This document shows, one piece after another, positions 8,794 to 18,963 of a stretch of 64,000 nucleotides of DNA (position 1 is its first letter; each line of letters starts with the position of its first letter). This DNA comes from an uncultured Flavobacteriaceae bacterium (GTDB lineage Bacteria; Bacteroidota; Bacteroidia; Flavobacteriales; Flavobacteriaceae). The stretch covers positions 1-64,000 of the forward strand of contig CANKYF010000010.1 in NCBI GenBank assembly GCA_947487895.1, given 5' to 3'. A program made the position numbers and the translations under genes. Below the pieces are notes generated by a model. That model saw nothing but the letters and a program-made list of their open reading frames with translations, made no database searches and was not told where the DNA came from.

Positions 8794-8826
8794 TGGCAAC
8801 TGTTTTTTTATGGTTGCCATTTTTTA
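8794..8826 (+). terminator. Intrinsic terminator after the acyl-CoA dehydrogenase
   Basis: TGGCAAC (8794-8800) pairs with GTTGCCA (8813-8819) across a 12-nt T-rich loop and is followed by TTTTTT. It separates the dehydrogenase from the arsenosugar genes. Confidence 0.65.
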
Positions 8827-8916: not shown

Positions 8917-9252
8917 ATGCAAAAAACATATTACGATCCGGCAGACTTAAGAAAATTTGGAAAGATCACAGAATGGAGCGAGGAATTAGGCAACAAATTC
9001 TTTGAGTATTACGGAAAAGTCTTTGAAGAAGGAGCCCTTTCTGCTCGTGAAAAGGCTTTAATTGCATTAGCTGTTTCGCATACAGAACAATGTCCTTATT
9101 GTATTGATGCCTATACAAAAGACACATTACAACGCGGCATTACTAAAGAAGAAATGATGGAGGCTATTCATGTTGGTGCTGCTATAAAAAGTGGTGCAAC
9201 TTTGGTACATGGCGTTCAAATGATGAATAAAGTTAATAAATTAGAAATGTAA
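8917..9252 (+). CDS. AhpD-like arsenosugar-associated peroxidase-family protein
   Basis: A 111-residue carboxymuconolactone decarboxylase/AhpD-fold protein. The redox CPYC pair is at about residues 59-62 in HTEQCPYCIDAY, followed by the AIHVGAAIKSGATLVHG helix. Proteins of this subfamily (TIGR04030) are repeatedly annotated beside arsenosugar genes, and here it lies 96 bp upstream of arsS in the same direction. Its precise reaction is not established. A thiol-based redox step on an arsenic intermediate is a guess from context. It is probably the first gene of the locus. Confidence 0.82.
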   Translation: MQKTYYDPADLRKFGKITEWSEELGNKFFEYYGKVFEEGALSAREKALIALAVSHTEQCPYCIDAYTKDTLQRGITKEEMMEAIHVGAAIKSGATLVHGVQMMNKVNKLEM

Positions 9253-9275
9253 ATTACATTGATGATTATTGAATT

Positions 9276-9342
9276 GCGATTTTAGATTTTTATCATATCA
9301 TTACTCTTAAATCGTATATCTCAAAATCGTAAATCATAAATC
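9276..9342. repeat. Degenerate AAATCGTAAATC-type repeats
   Basis: The spacer between the AhpD-like gene and arsS is built from related short words (AAATCGTATATC, AAATCGTAAATC, ATAAATC and the partly complementary GCGATTTTAGATTT). No promoter or terminator is evident. It resembles the word-repeat spacer at 12341-12435 in style but not in sequence. Confidence 0.3.
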
Positions 9343-9348
9343 CAAATA

Positions 9349-10404
9349 ATGGCTATAAAGTCCCTACATAAAAGAGAAAGTCAATTAGCTAATAGTAAAC
9401 GTCAATTAGAAATTTTATCTAATGGTATTTTTCAAAATGGCGAATTACCAACCTTTAAAGATAAGATTGCAGAAAGCAATCAATTTCCTCTAAAGGCACA
9501 AAAATTAGAGATTCTACAAATAAATGTTGGCTACATGTGTAATCAAGTTTGTGAACATTGCCATGTAGACGCAGGTCCAGACCGTAAAGAAATAATGACT
9601 AAAGACACTATGCAACAGTGTTTAGAAGTCATTAAAAAAACTGGGGCTCATACCTTAGATTTAACTGGTGGTGCACCAGAAATGAATCCTAATTTTAGAT
9701 GGTTTGTAGAAGAAGCTGCTAAAGCTGGTATTAAAGATTTTATTGTACGTTCTAACCTTACCATTATTAGAGCCAATAAAAAATACCATGACTTACCAGA
9801 ATTCTTTAAAAAACACAATGTACATGTAGTAAGCTCAATGCCACACTGGACCCGTGGAAAAACAGACAAACAACGTGGTGATGGTGTTTTTGATAAATCT
9901 ATTCAGGCGTTAAAAGATCTAAATACCGTTGGGTATGGTATGAAAGACAGTAGTTTAAGGTTAGATCTAGTTTACAACCCTTCAGGTGCTTTTTTACCAA
10001 GTGATCAAGCTTCTATGGAAAAAGATTTTAAAAAAGCGCTTTTAGAAGATTTCAACATTCATTTTCATAATTTATTTGCAATTACTAACTTACCTATTAG
10101 TAGGTTTTTAGATTATTTAATTGCTTCTGAAAATTATGAAGATTATATGTACGCTTTGGTAGAAGCTTACAATCCTTCTGCTGTAGCTAATGTAATGTGT
10201 ACCAATACCATTTCGGTGAGTTGGGATGGCTATTTATATGATTGTGATTTTAACCAAATGCTACAATTAACTGTAAATAGTAAATCAAAACATATTTCTG
10301 ATTATAATGAAGACTTACTTGAAGGTAGAAATATAGTTATTTCTCAACATTGCTATGGTTGCACTGCTGGTGCTGGTAGTAGTTGCCAAGGTACAGTTGC
10401 TTAA
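9349..10404 (+). CDS. arsS: Arsenosugar biosynthesis radical SAM protein ArsS
   Basis: The radical SAM cluster motif CX3CX2C is at residues 64-71 (CNQVCEHC) and is followed by the family-typical HVDAGPDR. The C-terminal domain is Cys-rich (YDCDFNQML, then CYGC and a last Cys near 346), as in the radical SAM/Cys-rich family TIGR04167. ArsS is known to join a 5'-deoxyadenosyl group to methylated arsenic, the defining step of arsenosugar formation. The 351-residue length is normal. It lies 11 bp before the rhodanese gene and five genes before arsM. Confidence 0.92.
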   Translation: MAIKSLHKRESQLANSKRQLEILSNGIFQNGELPTFKDKIAESNQFPLKAQKLEILQINVGYMCNQVCEHCHVDAGPDRKEIMTKDTMQQCLEVIKKTGAHTLDLTGGAPEMNPNFRWFVEEAAKAGIKDFIVRSNLTIIRANKKYHDLPEFFKKHNVHVVSSMPHWTRGKTDKQRGDGVFDKSIQALKDLNTVGYGMKDSSLRLDLVYNPSGAFLPSDQASMEKDFKKALLEDFNIHFHNLFAITNLPISRFLDYLIASENYEDYMYALVEAYNPSAVANVMCTNTISVSWDGYLYDCDFNQMLQLTVNSKSKHISDYNEDLLEGRNIVISQHCYGCTAGAGSSCQGTVA

Positions 10405-10415
10405 TTTTTCGGTTT

Positions 10416-10910
10416 ATGAAAAAAATCGCATTTTTCTTATTCACTCTAATTTGGTCTTTAAGTTTCTCTCAAAAGAAACTTAATAAACTTTTAAAGTTAG
10501 AGAACACTGAAAGCATTCCTTATGTATATGTTGAAGATTTAAAAAAAGACATATCAAATGTGATACTATTAGATTCTAGAGAACCTAAAGAATTTGCTAC
10601 AAGTCATTTAAAAAATGCCATTTGCGTTGGGTATGATTTTTTCAGTTTAGATTCTATAACTACAAAATTGCCAAATAAAGATTCAAAAATAGTAGTGTAT
10701 TGTTCTTTAGGCATTCGTTCTGAAGATATAGCAGAGAAACTCAAAAAAGCAGGCTATAATAACATACTTAACCTTTATGGTGGTATTTTTGAATGGAAAA
10801 ATAATGATAATCCCGTTTATAATTCAGAAGAAAAAGAAACAGAAAATGTGCATACATTTTCTAAAGAATGGAGTAAATGGTTAAAAAAGGGAAATAAGAT
10901 ATATGAGTAA
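10416..10910 (+). CDS. Secreted/periplasmic rhodanese-like protein
   Basis: A single rhodanese domain (about residues 35-135) follows a Sec signal (KKIAFFLFTLIWSLSFS). The active-site loop is CSLGIRS with Cys at about residue 96, so a persulfide could form. I chose the ATG at 10416 because it starts directly on the signal peptide; an earlier in-frame start would overlap arsS and spoil the signal. It overlaps the next gene by 8 bp. Rhodanese genes are common in these arsenosugar loci. A role in sulfur handling of thio-arsenicals is only inference. Confidence 0.85.
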   Translation: MKKIAFFLFTLIWSLSFSQKKLNKLLKLENTESIPYVYVEDLKKDISNVILLDSREPKEFATSHLKNAICVGYDFFSLDSITTKLPNKDSKIVVYCSLGIRSEDIAEKLKKAGYNNILNLYGGIFEWKNNDNPVYNSEEKETENVHTFSKEWSKWLKKGNKIYE

Positions 10911-11532
10911 AGAATTAGTTATTGTTTTTGTAAAAAACATAAAACTCGGAAAGGTAAAAACACGTCTTGCAAAAACTATAGGAAATCAAGGAGCTTTTGA
11001 AGTTTATAAAGAACTAGTAGATATTACCAAAAATGCTTTAGAAAACTTAAATACTGAAAAGCGAATTTATTTTTCTGAAATGGTTATAGAAACCAAATGG
11101 CCTAATCTTTATAAAGCTGTTCAAATAGGTGGAGACTTAGGTGAGCGTATGAAAAATGCGTTTCTAAAAGGTTTTCAAGATGGTTTTGAACGCATTGTTT
11201 TAATAGGGTCTGACTTACCAGACATAAACGAAACACACATTAAAAACGGATTAGAAGCCCTAAAAGAAACCGATACTGTTTTTGGCCCTGCAGAAGATGG
11301 TGGATATTACCTTATTGGTTTATCAAAAATGAATGAACTAGTTTTTAATAACAAACCATGGAGTCAGTCTAATTTATTAGACGAAACTCTTCATGAATTA
11401 AAAGAAAATAACATTACATTTAGTACTTTAGAAACGTTAAACGATATTGATACATTTGAGGACTTAGAAGCTTCTAGCTTCTACAAATCAAATATAACAT
11501 TACAAGAAAAAATAAGGCATTTACATGATTAA
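10903..11532 (+). CDS. TIGR04282 arsenosugar-associated transferase (CofC-like)
   Basis: A 209-residue GT-A-fold protein of the TIGR04282 family, with the N-terminal FVKNIKLGKVKTRLAKTIG segment (like the nucleotide loop of nucleotidylyltransferases), VLIGSDLPD (about 104-112) and GPAEDGGYYLIGL (about 127-139). The family is annotated as a glycosyltransferase of arsenosugar biosynthesis but resembles CofC-type nucleotidylyltransferases. It overlaps the rhodanese gene by 8 bp and the phosphorylase by 8 bp, so the four genes from arsS to PNP look like one translational unit. Confidence 0.88.
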   Translation: MSKELVIVFVKNIKLGKVKTRLAKTIGNQGAFEVYKELVDITKNALENLNTEKRIYFSEMVIETKWPNLYKAVQIGGDLGERMKNAFLKGFQDGFERIVLIGSDLPDINETHIKNGLEALKETDTVFGPAEDGGYYLIGLSKMNELVFNNKPWSQSNLLDETLHELKENNITFSTLETLNDIDTFEDLEASSFYKSNITLQEKIRHLHD

Positions 11533-12337
11533 ATATATTGAAGAAACAGTAGAGTATTTACTAGACAAAGGCTTTGAAAACCCTGAAATTGGTATCATTT
11601 TAGGTACTGGATTAGGGCAACTTATAGACGAAATTGAAATTTTAAAGCAGGTAAGCTATAATCATATCCCTAACTTCCCTACCGCCACAGTAGAGTTTCA
11701 TAAAGGCAAATTAATTTATGGAAATCTTGCTGGTAAACGAGTAATTGTCATGCAAGGTCGTTTTCATTTATATGAAGGCTATACACTTCAGGATATTACC
11801 TTTCCTGTTAGAATCATGGAAAAACTAGGCATTAATACACTGCTGGTGTCTAATGCTGCTGGTGCCATCAATTTAGATTACAAAAAAGGAGAACTTATGT
11901 TAATTGATGACCACATTAACCTTCAAGGTAGCTCTCCATTAGCATTTAAAGGTGTAGAACAATTAGGCGAACGTTTTACTGATATGAGTGCGCCTTATGA
12001 CAAAGACATCAATGTGAGCTTTCAAAATATTGCAAAAGAAAATAACATAACACTTCATAAAGGTGTTTATGCATCAGTAGTTGGTCCTCAATTAGAGACT
12101 AGAGCAGAATATAGAATGCTAAAAATTATTGGAGCAGATGCTGTAGGTATGAGTACCGTACCTGAAATAATTGTTGCGAATCATTTAAAATTAAAAGTGG
12201 CAGCTGTGTCAGTTTTAACAGATGAATGCGACCCAGATAACCTAGAACCTATAAACATTGAGGATATCATAGCTAATGCTGCAAAAGCAGAACCTAAAAT
12301 GATAACCTTATTTAAAGAATTAATACAAACACTTTAA
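11525..12337 (+). CDS. Purine nucleoside phosphorylase in the arsenosugar operon
   Basis: A trimeric-type PNP of 270 residues with GIILGTGLGQL (about 23-33), GRFHLYEGY (about 77-85), LLVSNAAGAIN (about 111-121), the purine-site segment VGPQLETRAEYRML and MSTVPE. It would split a purine nucleoside with phosphate to give the free base and a ribose 1-phosphate. Overlap with the TIGR04282 gene ties it to this pathway, where removal of adenine from the arsenic-adenosyl intermediate is needed. General purine salvage remains the default alternative. Confidence 0.9.
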   Translation: MIKYIEETVEYLLDKGFENPEIGIILGTGLGQLIDEIEILKQVSYNHIPNFPTATVEFHKGKLIYGNLAGKRVIVMQGRFHLYEGYTLQDITFPVRIMEKLGINTLLVSNAAGAINLDYKKGELMLIDDHINLQGSSPLAFKGVEQLGERFTDMSAPYDKDINVSFQNIAKENNITLHKGVYASVVGPQLETRAEYRMLKIIGADAVGMSTVPEIIVANHLKLKVAAVSVLTDECDPDNLEPINIEDIIANAAKAEPKMITLFKELIQTL

Positions 12338-12340
12338 TTA

Positions 12341-12435
12341 AGTAGGCAGTAGCAGTACTCAGTAGGCAGTCACAATTGACAAAGGAATAACGAAACTCCT
12401 AATACTGAATACTGGATACTGGATACTGAATACAG
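12341..12435. repeat. Short word-repeat spacer before arsM
   Basis: The 104-bp gap before arsM contains AGTAGGCAGT twice (12341 and 12361) and a run of TACTGAATACTGGATACTGG-type words (12402-12435). The word ATACTG recurs about every 8 bp. No hairpin terminator or promoter stands out. Slippage-prone spacers of this style are not coding. Confidence 0.55.
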
Positions 12436-12441
12436 AGAAAC

Positions 12442-13413
12442 ATGAGTAATTATTTAGAAACTACCAAAGACGTATATAAAGAAGCTGCATTAACACCAGA
12501 CGTAGGACTGTGTTGTACCACTAATCCTATCTGGGAATTACCTGGGTTGAAAATTCCAAAAATAATGCAGGAAATGAATTATGGGTGTGGATCTACAGTA
12601 CATGCTAGAGATTTATCTAATAATCCTAAAATGTTATATGTTGGTGTTGGCGGCGGCATGGAGTTATTACAATTTTCCTATTTTAATCGTGAAAAATCAG
12701 GAGTTGTTGGTGTAGATGTGGTTGATGAAATGCTAGAAGCCTCTAGAAAAAACTTCAAAGAAGCCGAAGAACTAAATCCTTGGTTTAAAAGTGAGTTTGT
12801 TGATTTAAAAAAAGGCGATGCTCTTAACCTACCTGTTGAGGACAATAGTATTGATGTAGCTGCTCAAAACTGCTTGTTTAATATTTTCAAAGAAGAAGAT
12901 TTAAAGAAAGCCATTGCAGAAATGTATCGTGTTTTAAAACCACACGGACGCTTAGTAATGAGTGACCCTACTTGCGAACAACCTATGAATGATAACTTAC
13001 GTAACGACGATAGATTACGTGCGCTTTGTTTAAGCGGAAGTTTACCAATAAAAGAGTATGTAAAAATGTTGACAGATGCTGGTTTTGGTACTATTGAGAT
13101 TAGAGCAAGAAAACCTTACCGTGTATTGAGCCCTAAGCATTATGACACAGATGAATTAATCTATATAGAATCTATAGAAGTTGCTGCTATAAAAGATCCA
13201 ATGCCAGCAGATGGTCCTTGTGTATTTACTGGTAAAGCTGCTATTTATTTTGGTGATGACGATTTTGTTGATGACAATGCAGGTCATATTTTATTGAAAA
13301 ACCAGCCACTAGCTGTTTGTGATAAAACTGCTGCTAATTTAGCAGCGCTTGATAGAGATGATATTTTTATAAGCGAGTCTACTTATCATTATGATGGTGG
13401 TGGATGTTGTTAG
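12442..13413 (+). CDS. arsM: Arsenosugar-type arsenite S-adenosylmethionine methyltransferase ArsM
   Basis: A class I SAM methyltransferase of 323 residues. Motif I is LYVGVGGGMELL (about 65-76), followed by GVDVVDEMLEASR and LKPHGRLVMSDPTCEQP. Cysteines that could hold As(III) occur at 24-25, 49, near 152 and 201, and in a terminal GGGCC. It would methylate arsenite, providing the methylated arsenic used by ArsS. The Cys pair at 24-25 followed by TTNPIWELPGLKIP is typical of the arsenosugar-linked ArsM subgroup. A strong terminator follows. Confidence 0.9.
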   Translation: MSNYLETTKDVYKEAALTPDVGLCCTTNPIWELPGLKIPKIMQEMNYGCGSTVHARDLSNNPKMLYVGVGGGMELLQFSYFNREKSGVVGVDVVDEMLEASRKNFKEAEELNPWFKSEFVDLKKGDALNLPVEDNSIDVAAQNCLFNIFKEEDLKKAIAEMYRVLKPHGRLVMSDPTCEQPMNDNLRNDDRLRALCLSGSLPIKEYVKMLTDAGFGTIEIRARKPYRVLSPKHYDTDELIYIESIEVAAIKDPMPADGPCVFTGKAAIYFGDDDFVDDNAGHILLKNQPLAVCDKTAANLAALDRDDIFISESTYHYDGGGCC

Positions 13414-13425
13414 ATATTAATTTAT

Positions 13426-13474
13426 AACCCTTGTATTCTTTTAGTGAAAAGAATACAAGGGTTCAATCTATTTT
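13426..13474 (+). terminator. Strong intrinsic terminator after arsM
   Basis: A perfect 17-bp stem (13426-13442 with 13447-13463, AACCCTTGTATTC...) and a 4-nt AGTG loop are followed by CAATCTATTTTTT. It closes the first arsenosugar transcription unit and faces the converging DUF2268 gene, whose stop is at 13493, so it may serve both directions. Confidence 0.85.
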
Positions 13475-13492
13475 TTCTCAGTCTTACTAACA

Positions 13493-14227
13493 TTAGTAAC
13501 CTGCCAGACTTATTATTTCATTAGGTTTTAATGCGCTTAATTCTATAATGCTCTTACCAGACTTTTTCATCGCTTTTCTAATAAGATAGTTTCCTGCCCT
13601 ATATCCTATAGAAGTTCTACCATCAGGATGTTCTCCCATTACCCATTTATTATAACTTGCATCAAGCGGAAGATCTAAAATTTCTTTCACCCAACTATCA
13701 GCTTCAACTGTAAAGGAATTTGCATCGCATATATACCCCGTTTGTATTTCTGCAAACACAACTGCTAAACCCTCATTAACCATGGCATTAGGAATTCCAT
13801 ATCCAAATTTATTATCGTATATAGCCCAACCCCGTGCTAAATGATGGAATTCATGAAACACTACACTTTTAATCCCCAATTCAAGAGAATCAACAATACC
13901 CCCATAATAACTATTGGAAAGCTGAATGGCAATTGTTGGAGGAGAATTCCATTCAGTTCTTCCCGTTACACCTCCAATATCATCCAAATCCCAATTTACA
14001 CTCTCAACAACAACTTTTATACTATCAGGAAGATTTGGTAAAACATTACAAACTTCTCTCCCTGATTTATTTATCAATTCACTGACGAATATTTTTTGTG
14101 GCCCTGTAAACTTAAGTGAGTCTTCCTGAAAGACAATCTTTATTTTCCCCAATTGAGATTGTCTCGAATTACAGGCAACAACGCACAATATGAGTACAAT
14201 TAAAGCAAAGCTCTTTAGTATTTTCAT
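13493..14227 (-). CDS. Lipoprotein with DUF2268-type zinc protease motif
   Basis: The 244-residue protein starts with a lipoprotein signal (lipobox VVAC, Cys about 19). An HEFHH zinc-binding motif lies at about 125-129, followed by VNEGLAVVFAE (about 150-160), which could supply the third ligand, as in DUF2268-type predicted Zn-dependent proteases. I chose ATG 14227, which places the signal at the N terminus; ATG 14242 adds five residues. It lies 21 bp after a DUF4097 gene and ends the ECF sigma operon. No substrate is known. Confidence 0.7.
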   Translation of the reverse strand: MKILKSFALIVLILCVVACNSRQSQLGKIKIVFQEDSLKFTGPQKIFVSELINKSGREVCNVLPNLPDSIKVVVESVNWDLDDIGGVTGRTEWNSPPTIAIQLSNSYYGGIVDSLELGIKSVVFHEFHHLARGWAIYDNKFGYGIPNAMVNEGLAVVFAEIQTGYICDANSFTVEADSWVKEILDLPLDASYNKWVMGEHPDGRTSIGYRAGNYLIRKAMKKSGKSIIELSALKPNEIISLAGY

Positions 14228-14248
14228 TTTATACTTTTCCATTGCACA

Positions 14249-14971
14249 TTAACCTTTCCTTATGTAAATATTCCCCGAAACGGTTTCCATTATTAACGGA
14301 AACGTTCCTCCATTAATTTGTTTTGACACCTTGTTATTAAATGACTTGCCGTGTTTCCCTAAATCAGTTTTTTCAAAGTCCAAATCAGAATATATAGTAC
14401 CTGTTACAGATTTTGCATTAAGCTTCGCCTTATTAACTTTAATATCGAGAGCTCCACTTATTGTTTTTAATCGTAATTCTCCATTATATTTTTTTATGGT
14501 TACGTCTCCAGAAATTAAATCGGTAACCAAGTCACCTTCATAAGCATCTGCAAATACACTACCTGATATACTCTTTATTCTAAGCTTGATATTCTTGGGT
14601 ACTATGACAACATAATTAATATCTGATGTACCGCAACAATCACAATTGTTATTTTTTCCATCTTTATTAGAATAATAGACGTTTCGTTTTTTACTTTTAA
14701 AATAATCTCCAAAATCTGAATATAGCTTTAACTGTCCCGAACTATTTTCGCTCTTAATACTGTAATTGTCATTACCTGTACCATCATCAATATTTACTGA
14801 TGCTTTTACTATAATTTCATTAGTGTTTCCATGCACAACTTTAATATCCTGAGCGAACTTAAAGTTGATGAAAACCTCTTGATCTTTAGAAATTTGCTCT
14901 TTTACTTCTACTTGTTTTTGGGCATTAAGCGTTACTACACTTAATAGTGCCACTATAATTATATATTTCAT
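14249..14971 (-). CDS. Secreted DUF4097-like beta-repeat protein
   Basis: A 240-residue protein with a Sec signal (KYIIIVALLSVVTLNAQ) and then repeated short beta-strand units of the type LVTDLISGDVTIKKYNGEL/LRLKTISGALDIKV/LNAKSVTGTIYSDL, characteristic of DUF4097-type putative adhesin domains. A CDCC cluster (about 111-114) sits before the first units. It is probably periplasmic or surface exposed. It shares design with the next gene upstream and both follow an ECF sigma/anti-sigma pair. Function unknown. Confidence 0.7.
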   Translation of the reverse strand: MKYIIIVALLSVVTLNAQKQVEVKEQISKDQEVFINFKFAQDIKVVHGNTNEIIVKASVNIDDGTGNDNYSIKSENSSGQLKLYSDFGDYFKSKKRNVYYSNKDGKNNNCDCCGTSDINYVVIVPKNIKLRIKSISGSVFADAYEGDLVTDLISGDVTIKKYNGELRLKTISGALDIKVNKAKLNAKSVTGTIYSDLDFEKTDLGKHGKSFNNKVSKQINGGTFPLIMETVSGNIYIRKG

Positions 14972-14999
14972 TTTGACTGTTCGTTTTTTTGATTGATGA

Positions 15000-15770
15000 T
15001 TATTTTTTTCTGAGATATACGTTTCCTGTTGACGACCTAAGTGCTATGTTTACGCCTCCTCCATTGAGTTTACTTTCAATTTTACGATTTGCTCCAACTA
15101 CTTTCATACCGTCTGGAGCATCAATTTTTAACTCAAAATCAGTGTAAATGGTTCCCATAGTAGAACGTAATTCTAAATCGGCTTTTGTATTTGATGGTAA
15201 AGACACATCAACACTTCCTGTTGAACTATGAATTGTAATTGGCGACGATTGATTAACATTTACAAAATCAACTTTAATAGCCCCTGTTTCTGTATGGGCA
15301 GTAATGGGACCTGTAACTTCATTAAACGTAATATTACCCACATTACTGTTAACTTCAATTTCAGAAGAGAATCCTTCAAAAGTTACTGCACCTAGCTCAC
15401 CACAATCAATATGAATATCTATTGTTTTTGGAAGTTCTATTTTTAGTCCGTTTCGTTGCATCCACGATTTTAAGTCTTTAACACGTAATACACTTCCCTC
15501 TTGACTAACTGAAACCCCAAGCCCTGTGTTATCAGTTCCTCCAGAGTAAATCGCTTTTAATCCTTCAGCTCGTTGATTGTTTGTACTATCCTTCCCAATA
15601 CTTTTGAATTTTAATTCATTATCTGAGCCAGCCGTTATTGTAACCTTTGTTCCTGTTTCAATATATACTTTAGTGATTCCATTTAAGCTTTTGGTATAAT
15701 CTTCCTGAGCATAGGTGAATATAAAGCTTAAAAAAGCCATTAGATTTATAATAATTCCTGTTCGTTTCAT
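15000..15770 (-). CDS. Secreted DUF4097-like beta-repeat protein
   Basis: This is a paralogue of the next gene downstream: a Sec signal ending FTYAQ, then strand repeats such as EIEVNSNVGNITFNEV, ITAHTETGAIKVDF, ITIHSSTGSVDVSL and LELRSTMGTIYTDF, ending with RSSTGNVYLRKK. I chose ATG 15770 (MKRTGIII), which begins the signal peptide and leaves a 22-bp gap after the anti-sigma gene; a longer in-frame version would overlap that gene and bury the signal. Probably an envelope protein controlled by the upstream sigma factor. Confidence 0.72.
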   Translation of the reverse strand: MKRTGIIINLMAFLSFIFTYAQEDYTKSLNGITKVYIETGTKVTITAGSDNELKFKSIGKDSTNNQRAEGLKAIYSGGTDNTGLGVSVSQEGSVLRVKDLKSWMQRNGLKIELPKTIDIHIDCGELGAVTFEGFSSEIEVNSNVGNITFNEVTGPITAHTETGAIKVDFVNVNQSSPITIHSSTGSVDVSLPSNTKADLELRSTMGTIYTDFELKIDAPDGMKVVGANRKIESKLNGGGVNIALRSSTGNVYLRKK

Positions 15771-15792
15771 TTTGTTCGATTTTAATTTTTGA

Positions 15793-16584
15793 TTAAATAA
15801 TTTGCAAAATTCCATCATTTACTTGCTCTTTTACAAAATCTGGCGTATCCGAATGCTCCAATAGTTGCTTCATAGGAGCAATAGCGCGCTTTTCCTGAAT
15901 CTTCACCAAAAATTGAATAATTGCAATTTGTAAACTTGGATTTTTCTGCGTTGTTAGAGCCTCAATAAACGCATCTTTTACAATTGATGACTCTGGAAAT
16001 TCTGATAATGCTTCTGCTGCAGCCAGTCGCACATTAATATTTCCGTCGTATTGCATACGTTCTATCAAAGCTTCTAATATCTTGACATCTGGTTGTTCAA
16101 AACCTTCTGTATAATTTACTGCTTGAATACGTTTACTAACAGATTGATTTTCAATCATTGCTAATACCACACTCTCTTTTAATTCATTAGTTTCTATTTG
16201 TAGTGCTACTATTTCTTGATTGGCATCTTGTTTGGTTTTATGACTCCCCAGAAAATATCCTGAAAATAAAAACACTATAGATGCTGCCACTTGAAATGCG
16301 CGTTTCCATGGAAACTCCTTTTCTTGTTTGTTAAGTTGAACAATTTTTGGGTTAGATAGTTGTTTTTCTTCTTCAAGAAGTTTATAAAACCCTTCCCTTA
16401 AGCTTTCACTAGGTACTTCTTCCTCTATATCATTGAATGCCCTAAAAAGCACAACCGTTTCATCATAGAACGCTTTACAATTACCACATGTTTCTATATG
16501 CTTCTGTATTTGCTCTCCTTCATCAGTTGCTAATTGACCGTCAATGAAATCTACAATGTGCTGCTCTATATCTTTACAATTCAT
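15793..16584 (-). CDS. Anti-sigma factor with zinc finger and HEAT-like repeats
   Basis: The N terminus is a zf-HC2-type domain with H29-x3-C33-x2-C36 (HIETCGNC). A single transmembrane helix follows at about 98-113, and the periplasmic part (about 155-263) is made of alpha-helical HEAT-like repeats (LIERMQYDGNINVRLAAAEAL, IEALTTQKNPSLQIAIIQFL, MKQLLEHSDTPDFVKEQV). The start lies 2 bp after the sigma gene, as usual for a cognate anti-sigma. The HEAT-like sensor half suggests protein-protein interaction outside the membrane. The ligand is unknown. Confidence 0.82.
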   Translation of the reverse strand: MNCKDIEQHIVDFIDGQLATDEGEQIQKHIETCGNCKAFYDETVVLFRAFNDIEEEVPSESLREGFYKLLEEEKQLSNPKIVQLNKQEKEFPWKRAFQVAASIVFLFSGYFLGSHKTKQDANQEIVALQIETNELKESVVLAMIENQSVSKRIQAVNYTEGFEQPDVKILEALIERMQYDGNINVRLAAAEALSEFPESSIVKDAFIEALTTQKNPSLQIAIIQFLVKIQEKRAIAPMKQLLEHSDTPDFVKEQVNDGILQII

Positions 16585-16586
16585 GG

Positions 16587-17114
16587 TTATATGGTTTTAA
16601 AATAAACGGTTCTTAGTTTTTTTATAATACGGTGTATTTTCACTTTTACTGCACCTTCACTACTTCCTGTTATTTCGGCTATTTTACTATACTTTAGTCC
16701 TTGAAATCTATTTAGTACAATCAATTCTCTTTCTTCTTTATCTAATATTTTTATAGCCTCTTGTAAATGTGATACATTATCATTTTTATCAATACTATCT
16801 TCACTTTTACTGGCTACCAGTTCAACATCAATATGCCTTGACGTTTTTTTGGAATTCTGGTAATAATCTGAAAACTCATTTCTTGCAATTCTAAAAATCC
16901 ATGATACAAATTGACCTCCTTTATAAGATTCTCTATAACGCATCACTTTATAAAATACAGTTTGCGTCATGTCTTCACATATTGCCTTGTCTCTTACCAT
17001 TTGAAAATAAAAATTGTACAACCGCTTATTATAGCGTTCAAAAATATGAGCCATAGCATCTAGATTACCTTGAGATACATATAGCATTAATTCTTCATCG
17101 GTTAGCTTTTTCAA
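16587..17114 (-). CDS. ECF-type RNA polymerase sigma factor
   Basis: A 175-residue sigma-70 family ECF protein. Region 2 spans about residues 12-85 (YNKRLYNFYFQMVRDKAICEDMTQTVFYKVM and SWIFRIARNEFSDYY) and region 4 about 115-170 (LDKEERELIVLNRFQGLKYSKIAEITGSSEGAVKVKIHRIIKKL). It heads a five-gene minus-strand operon with its anti-sigma, two DUF4097 proteins and a DUF2268-like protease. A promoter of ECF type lies about 30 bp upstream, so it may control its own transcription. Confidence 0.9.
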   Translation of the reverse strand: MKKLTDEELMLYVSQGNLDAMAHIFERYNKRLYNFYFQMVRDKAICEDMTQTVFYKVMRYRESYKGGQFVSWIFRIARNEFSDYYQNSKKTSRHIDVELVASKSEDSIDKNDNVSHLQEAIKILDKEERELIVLNRFQGLKYSKIAEITGSSEGAVKVKIHRIIKKLRTVYFKTI

Positions 17115-17141
17115 TTCTATTTTGTTGTGGTTTGGCTTAAA

Positions 17142-17166
17142 GACCTTTAATTTATAAAAAGGTTAC
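17142..17166 (-). promoter_or_regulatory. Possible ECF autoregulatory promoter
   Basis: On the minus strand GTAACC (17161-17166) is followed after 16 bases by GTC (the GGTCTTT segment, 17139-17145), which fits the AAC-type -35 and GTC-type -10 pattern common to ECF sigma promoters. The predicted start site would be about 20 nt before the sigma start codon. Supported by position and motif only. Confidence 0.4.
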
Positions 17167-17286
17167 ACGAGATGTTCATTTTTTTTGAATGTATCTTTTA
17201 ATTATGTAAGTAATAGTATAAATTATGGACTTAAATTTAGCCTCTGGAACAATATCTAGTCTGAACTAAATTATTACTTAAACAAA

Positions 17287-18168
17287 ATGAAGCAACTAGG
17301 ATTAATTATTATTCTTTCACTTTTTTCATGTGCTGGTTCAAAAAAAGCCATTGAGAACACCACAAAACCTTCACCTGTTTCAATATCTCAGGTTAAAAAT
17401 GATACCGTTAGCACTACTGTTAATGAAATTACAAAAGATATAGATTCTATTAAAAAGCCTGAAAAAGCTCCTATAAAAACTGAAGAATCTCATCAAATAC
17501 CAGCAAAAAAAATCTTTGATGAACAACATGACTTATGGAATGAACTCTTACAAAAGCATGTTTCAGAAAACGGCAATGTTAATTATGAAGGGTTCAAAAA
17601 AGAGCAAAAAAATTTATATGGCTATCTTCGTTTTTTAAACCTAATTTATCAACATGAAAGTTTCAATACCAGTTCTAAAGAACAAAAGCTTGCTTTTTGG
17701 ATAAATGCATATAACGCCTTTACTGTAGATTTAATTTTACGTAATTACCCTCTAAAAAGCATTAAAGATCTAAAAGATCCATGGAAACAACGTCATTGGA
17801 AATTAGGAGATAAATGGTATAATTTAGATGAAATAGAACATCAAATTTTACGCAAAATGAATGAGCCTAGAATTCATTTTGCAATTAATTGTGCTTCTTT
17901 TTCTTGTCCTAAATTGCAAAACAAAGCTTTTACTGTGGATAATTTGGAAAAGCTGCTTACAAATGCTACAAAAGAATTTTTAAACGATACATCTAAAAAT
18001 AGTTTGACAGAAAATCAAATCCAAATATCAAAATTGTTCCAGTGGTTTAGCAAGGATTTTAAGCAGAACGGTTCTTTAATAGATTTTTTAAATAAGTATT
18101 CAGACGTTCAAATTTCAGCTAAAGCAAAAAAGAGCTTTATGGATTATAACTGGGATTTAAATGAGTAA
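17287..18168 (+). CDS. DUF547 lipoprotein (arsenosugar-associated)
   Basis: The signal has a lipobox ending LFSC (Cys 15), followed by a Ser/Thr/Lys-rich linker to about residue 80, then a DUF547 domain: KLAFWINAYNAFTVDLILRNYP (about 138-159), LDEIEHQILRKM and FAINCASFSCPKLQNKAF (about 199-216). DUF547 is a fold of uncertain biochemical role, often found near redox and glycosyl-transfer genes and a usual member of arsenosugar loci. It lies divergent from the ECF sigma gene and 57 bp upstream of the TIGR04283 gene. A second DUF547 gene is at 27481-28191. Confidence 0.85.
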   Translation: MKQLGLIIILSLFSCAGSKKAIENTTKPSPVSISQVKNDTVSTTVNEITKDIDSIKKPEKAPIKTEESHQIPAKKIFDEQHDLWNELLQKHVSENGNVNYEGFKKEQKNLYGYLRFLNLIYQHESFNTSSKEQKLAFWINAYNAFTVDLILRNYPLKSIKDLKDPWKQRHWKLGDKWYNLDEIEHQILRKMNEPRIHFAINCASFSCPKLQNKAFTVDNLEKLLTNATKEFLNDTSKNSLTENQIQISKLFQWFSKDFKQNGSLIDFLNKYSDVQISAKAKKSFMDYNWDLNE

Positions 18169-18225
18169 TACGAAGTATCGTTTCAGAATCTAAACACTAA
18201 AACTATTCCCCATCAAAGAACTAAA

Positions 18226-18963
18226 ATGAAAAATCAAATATCCATCATAATACCTACTTTAAATGAAGAAGTTCATATTAAACAACTTCTCAGTCATCTT
18301 TTAGAAAATTCTTTAGCAGAAAATGTAAAAGAGATCATAGTGGTTGATGGTGGTAGCACTGATAATACTGAAGCTTTAGTTAAAAAAGTACTCGATTCAT
18401 TTTCGAAAACAGAAAACATCCTTACAAACATTAAATTTATAACATCTACAAAAGGAAGAGCTAAACAAATGAATACAGGAGCAAAAATTGCTTCTGGTAA
18501 CATTCTTTATTTTTTACACGCTGACTCTTTTCCGCCTAAAAATTTTGATCAATTGATAATTTCTGAAGTTCAAAAAGGTAATGAAGCTGGCTGTTTTAAA
18601 ATGAAATTTAACAGTAGTCACTGGTGGTTAAAATTAGCAGGGTGGCTAACACAATTTTCATGGAAAATTGCTAGAGGTGGTGATCAAAGTCAATTTATCA
18701 CCAAATCTCTTTTTAATGACATTGGAGGCTTTGATGAAAGTTATACCATCTATGAAGACAACGATTTAATTGCTAAATTATATGAACGTAATCAATTTGT
18801 TGTAATCCAAGAATGGCTAACTACTTCCCCAAGATGTTATTGTACAAATGGTGTTTGGAGACTACAATTCCATTATTGGCATATTCATTTAAAAAAATGG
18901 CTGGGTGCCGATGCGCAAACGTTAAATAAATACTACTTTAAGCACGTTCTTGTTAAAAAATGA
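18226..18963 (+). CDS. TIGR04283 arsenosugar-associated glycosyltransferase
   Basis: A family 2-type GT-A glycosyltransferase of 245 residues. It has SIIIPTLNEEVHIKQLLSHL (about 6-25), VVDGGSTDNT (about 39-48), STKGRAKQMNTGAKIASG (about 68-85), YFLHADS (the metal-binding HAD triad), and RGGDQSQFI. The family TIGR04283 is consistently linked to ArsS and TIGR04282. It would transfer the arsenic-bearing ribose, or put an aglycone on it. It lies downstream of the DUF547 lipoprotein with no terminator between them. Confidence 0.9.
   Translation: MKNQISIIIPTLNEEVHIKQLLSHLLENSLAENVKEIIVVDGGSTDNTEALVKKVLDSFSKTENILTNIKFITSTKGRAKQMNTGAKIASGNILYFLHADSFPPKNFDQLIISEVQKGNEAGCFKMKFNSSHWWLKLAGWLTQFSWKIARGGDQSQFITKSLFNDIGGFDESYTIYEDNDLIAKLYERNQFVVIQEWLTTSPRCYCTNGVWRLQFHYWHIHLKKWLGADAQTLNKYYFKHVLVKK

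Follow-up and report, generated by a model that had tools for sequence, protein, structure and literature searches.

Arsenosugars are among the main organic arsenic compounds of seaweed and seafood. To our knowledge, only the first two steps of their synthesis have been assigned to enzymes, which is consistent with the accounts in PMC8552651 and PMC12159101. In Synechocystis, the synthesis of arsenosugars is reported to begin with ArsM and ArsS (PMC8552651; Xue 2019 and Cheng 2021, as cited there and in PMC12159101), and a radical S-adenosylmethionine (SAM) enzyme is described as adenosylating arsenic in this pathway (PMC12159101). Here we describe a locus at positions 8917-18963 of a 64,000-nucleotide stretch of contig CANKYF010000010.1 (the window) from an uncultured Flavobacteriaceae bacterium. 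The locus has the same first two enzymes as Synechocystis, with the same expected product, and a purine nucleoside phosphorylase (PNP) whose gene overlaps that of a CofC-like protein of family TIGR04282. We put at about 0.58 the probability that this is an arsenosugar biosynthesis locus with a nucleoside phosphorylase recruited for adenine removal.

The cluster itself is known: the linkage behind the arsenosugar names of NCBIfam is already curated, and six of the eight genes of the window locus are members, by cut-off, of its arsenosugar biosynthesis set (TIGR04167, NF038099, TIGR04169, TIGR04282, TIGR04283 and NF045521). Among the NCBIfam names that we saw, none ties PNP or 5'-methylthioadenosine (MTA) phosphorylase (MTAP) to arsenosugars. 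Similarly, no title or opening of an abstract among the literature matches listed links PNP or MTAP to ArsS, a weak negative given that most subscription journals lie outside the coverage. On the one cyanobacterial plasmid examined, that of Pseudanabaena, ArsM is annotated within 9 kb of ArsS, and no phosphorylase, TIGR04282 or TIGR04283 is annotated there. The linkage counts and the exchange of PNP for MTAP come from the present analysis.

Gene content and proposed route

Six plus-strand genes are close-packed at 8917-13413. They encode an AhpD-like, arsenosugar-associated peroxidase-like protein (TIGR04169; 8917..9252; 195.2 bits, cut-off 120), the radical SAM enzyme ArsS (TIGR04167 with DUF3641; 9349..10404; 447.3 bits, cut-off 300), a rhodanese-domain protein (NF045521, 'rhoda_near_glyco'; 10416..10910; 208.4 bits, cut-off 145), the TIGR04282 protein (DUF2064), a candidate nucleotidylyltransferase (10903..11532; 189.6 bits, cut-off 134), PNP (11525..12337; NF006054, 346.9 bits against 218, and TIGR01700, 297.3 against 293.35) and ArsM, an arsenite methyltransferase of the arsenosugar type (NF038099; 12442..13413; 576.4 bits, cut-off 400). 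A second block on the same strand holds a DUF547 protein (Pfam PF04784; 17287..18168; 99.7 bits, cut-off 27) and the GT2-type glycosyltransferase TIGR04283 (18226..18963; 226.8 bits, cut-off 182). All eight genes exceed curated cut-offs, DUF547 that of Pfam and the others those of NCBIfam, and the coordinates and identities given in an earlier note on this DNA hold. So does the overlap it described between PNP and TIGR04282, which amounts to 8 bases (start at 11525, end at 11532); TIGR04282 in turn starts 8 bases inside the rhodanese gene (10903 and 10910). The note had also grouped all the genes together. This is right for the contiguous six-gene run, whereas DUF547 and TIGR04283 form a separate block, about 3.9 kb from ArsM behind five minus-strand genes (13493-17114).

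In the route that we favour, ArsM methylates arsenite and ArsS adds a 5'-deoxyadenosyl group, as reported for the cyanobacterial enzymes. PNP would then phosphorolyse the resulting 5'-deoxy-5'-dimethylarsinoyl-adenosine to adenine and 5-deoxy-5-arsinoyl-ribose 1-phosphate, TIGR04282 would activate this sugar phosphate with a nucleoside triphosphate, and TIGR04283 would transfer the arsenosugar unit to glycerol or to an acceptor that contains it. MTAP would take over the job of PNP in part of the Pseudomonadota. Phosphorolysis of a beta-nucleoside proceeds with inversion and yields an alpha-1-phosphate, a configuration that nucleotidylyl transfer retains and that an inverting GT2 enzyme turns into a beta-riboside. 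Natural arsenosugars have the beta-riboside form, which the stereochemistry of the proposed route fits.

Linkage of PNP and TIGR04282 in the Flavobacteriaceae

Among 149 genomes of the window's family, 111 had ArsS, 133 PNP and 118 TIGR04282 above cut-off. We scored the PNP neighbourhoods of the 133 genomes, the window itself standing in for G000, with the window proteins and counted 111 ArsS-positive and 21 ArsS-negative genomes, leaving out G146 (PNP split in two frames), a second PNP copy in G033 and the ArsS-negative genomes with no PNP match; two of the latter, G052 and G081, do match TIGR04282. In all 111 ArsS-positive genomes, PNP has TIGR04282 no more than 2 kb away, versus 5 of the 21 ArsS-negative ones, and the grouping is thus far above chance. 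The earlier note had looked to PNP orthologues that never co-occur with ArsS as grounds for giving up the route, and with this constant pairing the route was not refuted. The TIGR04282-PNP pair is kept even in the 19 ArsS-positive genomes that showed no ArsS within 10 kb of PNP.

The other genes of the locus recur around PNP as well. ArsS lies within 10 kb of it in 92 of the 111 ArsS-positive genomes (within 3 kb in 76), TIGR04169 within 12 kb in 90, DUF547 within 10 kb in 93 and rhodanese within 6 kb in 84, with TIGR04283 nearby in 88 and ArsM in 83.

MTAP at ArsS loci of other bacteria

A related phosphorylase recurs at ArsS loci outside the Bacteroidota. ArsS was found on 52 of 72,556 plasmid records at E 1e-20, from six genera, and we examined one record per genus. 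MTAP accompanies the cluster on three of the six: those of Cupriavidus KK10, Burkholderia glumae and Acinetobacter portensis. On the Cupriavidus plasmid the order is Pit-ArsM-AhpD-like-ArsS-oxidoreductase-TVP38-TIGR04283-TIGR04282-MTAP (names partly by eye, as the record is unannotated there), and MTAP starts 5 bases past the end of TIGR04282. The Burkholderia plasmid has TIGR04282-TIGR04283-MTAP about 5 kb from ArsS. The Acinetobacter plasmid carries ArsS, TVP38/oxidoreductase, DUF547, TIGR04283, TIGR04282, an ArsM-like methyltransferase and Pit, with MTAP on the opposite strand. The Hymenobacter, Pseudanabaena and Thiodictyon plasmids had no MTAP within 9 kb of ArsS. MTAP is rare on plasmids, with 66 of the 72,556 records matching at E 1e-40, 47 of them from Burkholderia. 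Viral contigs gave a single, partial hit to ArsS, which carries no weight here.

In genomes, ArsS relatives were ranked by their score against the Acinetobacter ArsS, and we took the best 80 of 590 (79 from Pseudomonadota, 1 from Bdellovibrionota). These loci contain MTAP in 19 cases, TIGR04282 in 55, TIGR04283 in 57 and ArsM in 18. Where the locus spans at least 18 kb, MTAP is present in 17 of 46, against a rough chance expectation, estimated by hand for 20 kb in a genome of ~4 Mb, of ~0.2. In 10 of the 19 loci, no more than 500 bases separate MTAP from ArsS or TIGR04282, measured between stop-to-stop frames. Psychrobacter accounts for six of the 19 and Microbulbifer for four, and there are therefore at most about eleven independent cases.

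Since PNP and MTAP belong to different subfamilies within a single superfamily, finding both in this position suggests a common need, namely phosphorolysis of a 5'-modified adenosine. That two different subfamilies appear to have been recruited argues for phosphorolysis of the arsenic-adenosine that ArsS produces. If this is true, a step of the methionine-salvage type may have been turned to arsenic carbohydrate synthesis at least twice. With such a candidate for adenine removal, found as two phosphorylase subfamilies in distant bacteria, the remaining pathway becomes testable with three purified proteins.

Several of these loci also contain a Pit-like inorganic phosphate transporter gene: those of Acinetobacter, Cupriavidus, Pseudogulbenkiania and one gammaproteobacterium (L206:15307-16419, L207:5973-7112, L236 and L277). 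The gene would be of interest if phosphate is a substrate of the pathway or if arsenate is imported.

Active-site residues of PNP

Aligned with PNP 8swu, the window PNP has Asp233 in place of the Asn (T-N) in the base column and Ile245 in place of the His in the O5' column. We take these columns to be positions 243 and 257 of human PNP, and Glu191 of the window protein is presumably human position 201. The window PNP departs from the trimeric-PNP pattern of Asn and His in these two columns and agrees with the aligned MTAPs, which carry Asp in the base column and lack His in the O5' column. It is not an MTAP by family score (TIGR01694, 95.2 bits versus a cut-off of 274.85). The trimeric PNP 4lna, which matches it with 301 bits over nearly the full length, likewise has Asp in the same column and no His in the second, whereas its operon context differs.

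In human PNP, Asn243Asp and Glu201Gln together are reported to enable cleavage of adenosine-based prodrugs (PMC2799393), and His257 is reported to touch the 5'-oxygen (PMC5147791). On these data, the window residues would fit a 5'-modified adenine nucleoside as substrate. The second column is Ile or Val in all 111 ArsS-positive PNPs of the family and His in 8 of the 21 ArsS-negative ones. Non-His residues are thus associated with ArsS within the family (111/111 versus 13/21; Fisher test, p 1.1e-7, which ignores shared descent). In a PNP tree (quick search, LG+G4), 10 of the 13 ArsS-negative non-His proteins fall inside groups that hold ArsS-positive ones (support 45 to 91), as ArsS losses would produce, and the remaining 3 lie near the base.

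Two genomes, G328 (L292/L293) and G195 (L295/L296), each have two adjacent PNP copies, one of which carries TN instead of TD at the base column.

Weighing the role of the phosphorylase

Several observations weigh against the proposed role of PNP. Asp233 is present in all 132 scored genomes of the family, ArsS-positive and ArsS-negative alike, which rules it out as a mark specific to arsenic, and the window PNP still has Glu191, in a column that holds Ser or Gly in the aligned MTAPs. A non-His PNP occurs in the 13 ArsS-negative genomes just mentioned. Outside the family, at the level of order and class, 18 of 20 PNP stretches, taken from 18 genomes chosen partly for low PNP scores and hence biased, are non-His; these cover 7/7 ArsS-positive and 9/11 ArsS-negative genomes, a set that leaves out 2 of 20 genomes and one second copy. 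The non-His type, being common there also without ArsS, is thus ruled out as an ArsS-specific subfamily. As aligned, the residues of PNP point to aptitude, not specialisation. Within the family, five ArsS-negative genomes (G001, G018, G037, G104 and G129) keep rhodanese, TIGR04282, PNP and TIGR04283 with no ArsS or ArsM in the locus.

Linkage of the phosphorylase is also limited in range. We compared gene coordinates in 43 of the 91 ArsS-positive genomes from other families of the phylum sample, some of them on short contigs, and in none of the 43 does the contig that carries ArsS hold a gene of the PF01048 superfamily within 20 kb of ArsS. In two of them (G163 and G178), the sole PF01048 gene is a PNP that scores as high as the His type of the window's family. 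Among the best 80 of 590 ArsS loci, MTAP was not seen in 61, some of them on short contigs. TIGR04282 is present in all 43 genomes of other families (over cut-off in 42), and in 18 of them, the below-cut-off case included, it sits no more than about 1.3 kb from ArsS; in G183, a PF01048 gene starts ~300 bases from TIGR04282. TIGR04282 therefore goes with ArsS generally, whereas linkage of the phosphorylase was seen in the family of the window and in part of the Pseudomonadota. Elsewhere the task must fall to an unlinked phosphorylase, a hydrolase or another route.

One rival explanation is that PNP is a housekeeping phosphorylase acting on purine nucleosides, MTA or 5'-deoxyadenosine, a by-product of radical SAM enzymes; it would be in the operon by accident or to clear 5'-deoxyadenosine, and something other than PNP would take adenine off the arsenic nucleoside. 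Indeed, PF01048 has two matches in the window's own genome, the PNP and a divergent protein of ~290 amino acids, and a search with the MTAP family returned only the window PNP, below cut-off. The superfamily model found no MTA nucleosidase in this genome, unless the divergent protein is one. The window PNP is thus the only MTAP/PNP-type phosphorylase found in a genome that is 99.87% complete, and a housekeeping role is possible for this reason. The occurrence of the same PNP type without ArsS points the same way, as does the finding that MTAP is the single match in 14 of 15 searched genomes with an ArsS-linked MTAP (Pseudogulbenkiania has four). However, a housekeeping gene would not be expected to keep TIGR04282 as its neighbour in every ArsS-positive genome of the family, nor does this explanation account for the repeat of the pattern with MTAP, also on plasmids, where MTAP is rare. 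In addition, ArsS puts the deoxyadenosyl group into its product, so that little 5'-deoxyadenosine is expected as by-product. We therefore regard a solely housekeeping PNP as unlikely, though a serious contender.

In our preferred reading, recruitment for adenine removal, PNP is probably not exclusive to the arsenosugar pathway, and it is likely also the general phosphorylase of the cell for adenine nucleosides or 5'-modified nucleosides. The place that the earlier note gave PNP in the route has to be qualified to this extent: its type is not confined to arsenic, it is the only such gene of its genome, and linkage is found in none of the 43 genomes of other families. The route as a whole, ArsM-ArsS-PNP-TIGR04282-TIGR04283, is plausible and gains partial, indirect support from the pairing of PNP with TIGR04282, the repeat with MTAP and the guanylyltransferase relatives of TIGR04282 described below. 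Every reaction after that of ArsS is one that we infer from gene identities, their linkage, its repeat with a different subfamily and the aligned active-site residues, all of which are observed.

Where loci have rhodanese-TIGR04282-PNP-TIGR04283 and lack ArsS (L084, L085, L080, L081 and L082), either ArsS was lost recently or the module serves some other purpose. In G018, a stretch of 171 bases matches the C-terminal part of ArsS and may be a remnant of it.

Possible functions of TIGR04282 and TIGR04283

We searched a TIGR04282 profile built from 41 proteins against solved structures. The best match was 3cgx, a 'Putative nucleotide-diphospho-sugar transferase', followed at E 3e-5 to 7e-5 by MM_2497 (2i5e), a 3-phosphoglycerate guanylyltransferase (7p97) and a 2-phospho-L-lactate guanylyltransferase (6bwg); the only other hits, with E 0.3 and 0.6, were two designed ankyrin proteins. 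Judged by profile, the nearest solved relatives with known activity are guanylyltransferases of the CofC/FbiD kind, with similarity that spans most of the length in the case of 2i5e and 7p97 and, for 6bwg, its first part. In contrast, the window protein misses the cut-off of the CofC family TIGR03552 (42.9 bits versus 105), and its proposed substrate differs. The stretches KTRL, GDLG, GTDCP, DGGY and DID are conserved in the TIGR04282 consensus. TIGR04283 resembles GT2-type transferases, glucosyl-3-phosphoglycerate synthases included.

These matches leave room for TIGR04282 being no nucleotidylyltransferase but a glycosyltransferase or phosphate-binding partner, with the sugar phosphate transferred without activation to a nucleoside diphosphate (NDP) sugar. 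Its NCBIfam name, which is that of a glycosyltransferase, the identity of 3cgx and the missed CofC cut-off all agree with this. The structures ranked after 3cgx argue for nucleotidyl transfer, and a glycosyltransferase is already at hand, as a separate GT2-type transferase, TIGR04283, adjoins it in 53 of the 54 loci containing the two genes. We thus doubt this explanation. In the preferred route, with TIGR04282 as a nucleotidylyltransferase, the pathway might pass through a new nucleotide sugar, NDP-5-deoxy-5-dimethylarsinoyl-ribose, made by a recruited phosphorylase and a dedicated nucleotidylyltransferase, TIGR04282, and used by an arsenoribosyl transferase, TIGR04283, the phosphorylase having been recruited at least twice. 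We put this full version forward tentatively, at somewhat less than even odds. If it is true, TIGR04282 and TIGR04283, two widespread families that NCBIfam labels only as arsenosugar glycosyltransferases, would gain a function as enzymes.

Arsenolysis is the mechanism by which PNP reduces arsenate, and in rhodanese-type loops a length of six residues marks sulfurtransferases, CX5R the Acr2-type reductases. It is very unlikely that the phosphorylase serves arsenate reduction, with arsenolysis giving ribose 1-arsenate, thiols reducing this to arsenite for ArsM and rhodanese supplying sulfur or thiol chemistry: PNP does reduce arsenate to arsenite in vitro (in vivo occurrence being unknown according to the review, PMC12608789), PNP or MTAP alike could do so, and rhodanese is often near PNP, but this leaves the constant pairing with TIGR04282 unexplained, and the window rhodanese loop, CSLGIR, has the six-residue sulfurtransferase length and not CX5R.

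Long TIGR04282 frames of 459, 490 and 526 amino acids (G379, G225 and G247) were considered as fusions of TIGR04282 with TIGR04283. This is ruled out for these three: by eye, two run into a domain that looks like a class I glutamine amidotransferase and one into an outer-membrane-like protein. In L310 and L311, TIGR04282 continues in frame into a domain of class I glutamine amidotransferase appearance (by eye). In an iodate-reducing Aromatoleum, a TIGR04282 gene is named fbiD and is reported at the edge of the iodate-reduction island and on an island that is predicted to be mobile (PMC8801600).

Neighbouring genes and signals

For the rhodanese gene we set the start at 10416 in preference to the mechanically called TTG at 10383; by eye, its product looks secreted. 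Of the five minus-strand genes between ArsM and DUF547, one is DUF2268 by Pfam; the other four appear by eye to encode two adhesin-like proteins, an anti-sigma-like protein and an extracytoplasmic-function (ECF)-type sigma factor. In a hairpin scan, terminator-like hairpins on the plus strand bracket the six-gene unit, one upstream at 8794..8819 and a strong one of 17 pairs after ArsM at 13426..13463; the window holds 7 such sites versus 2.3 expected. A promoter scan of the window was uninformative, with 12 sites versus 23.6 expected.

Some related loci contain further genes. A fatty acid hydroxylase/sterol desaturase gene (L153:3027-3932, there a PF04116 match; also in L206, L208, L230, L232 and L248) could encode a lipid-modifying step, and its relatives occur in the loci of 50 of the 133 family genomes and 5 of 86 other ArsS loci. 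In L153 (8325-15872), the genes between ArsS and rhodanese encode SusC, SusD, a 448-residue product that matches nothing in Pfam, a metallophosphoesterase and another DUF2064 protein. Relatives of SusC and SusD are found side by side in the same loci in 14 of the 133 genomes, with gene order known from L153, and hint at outer-membrane uptake tied to arsenosugars.

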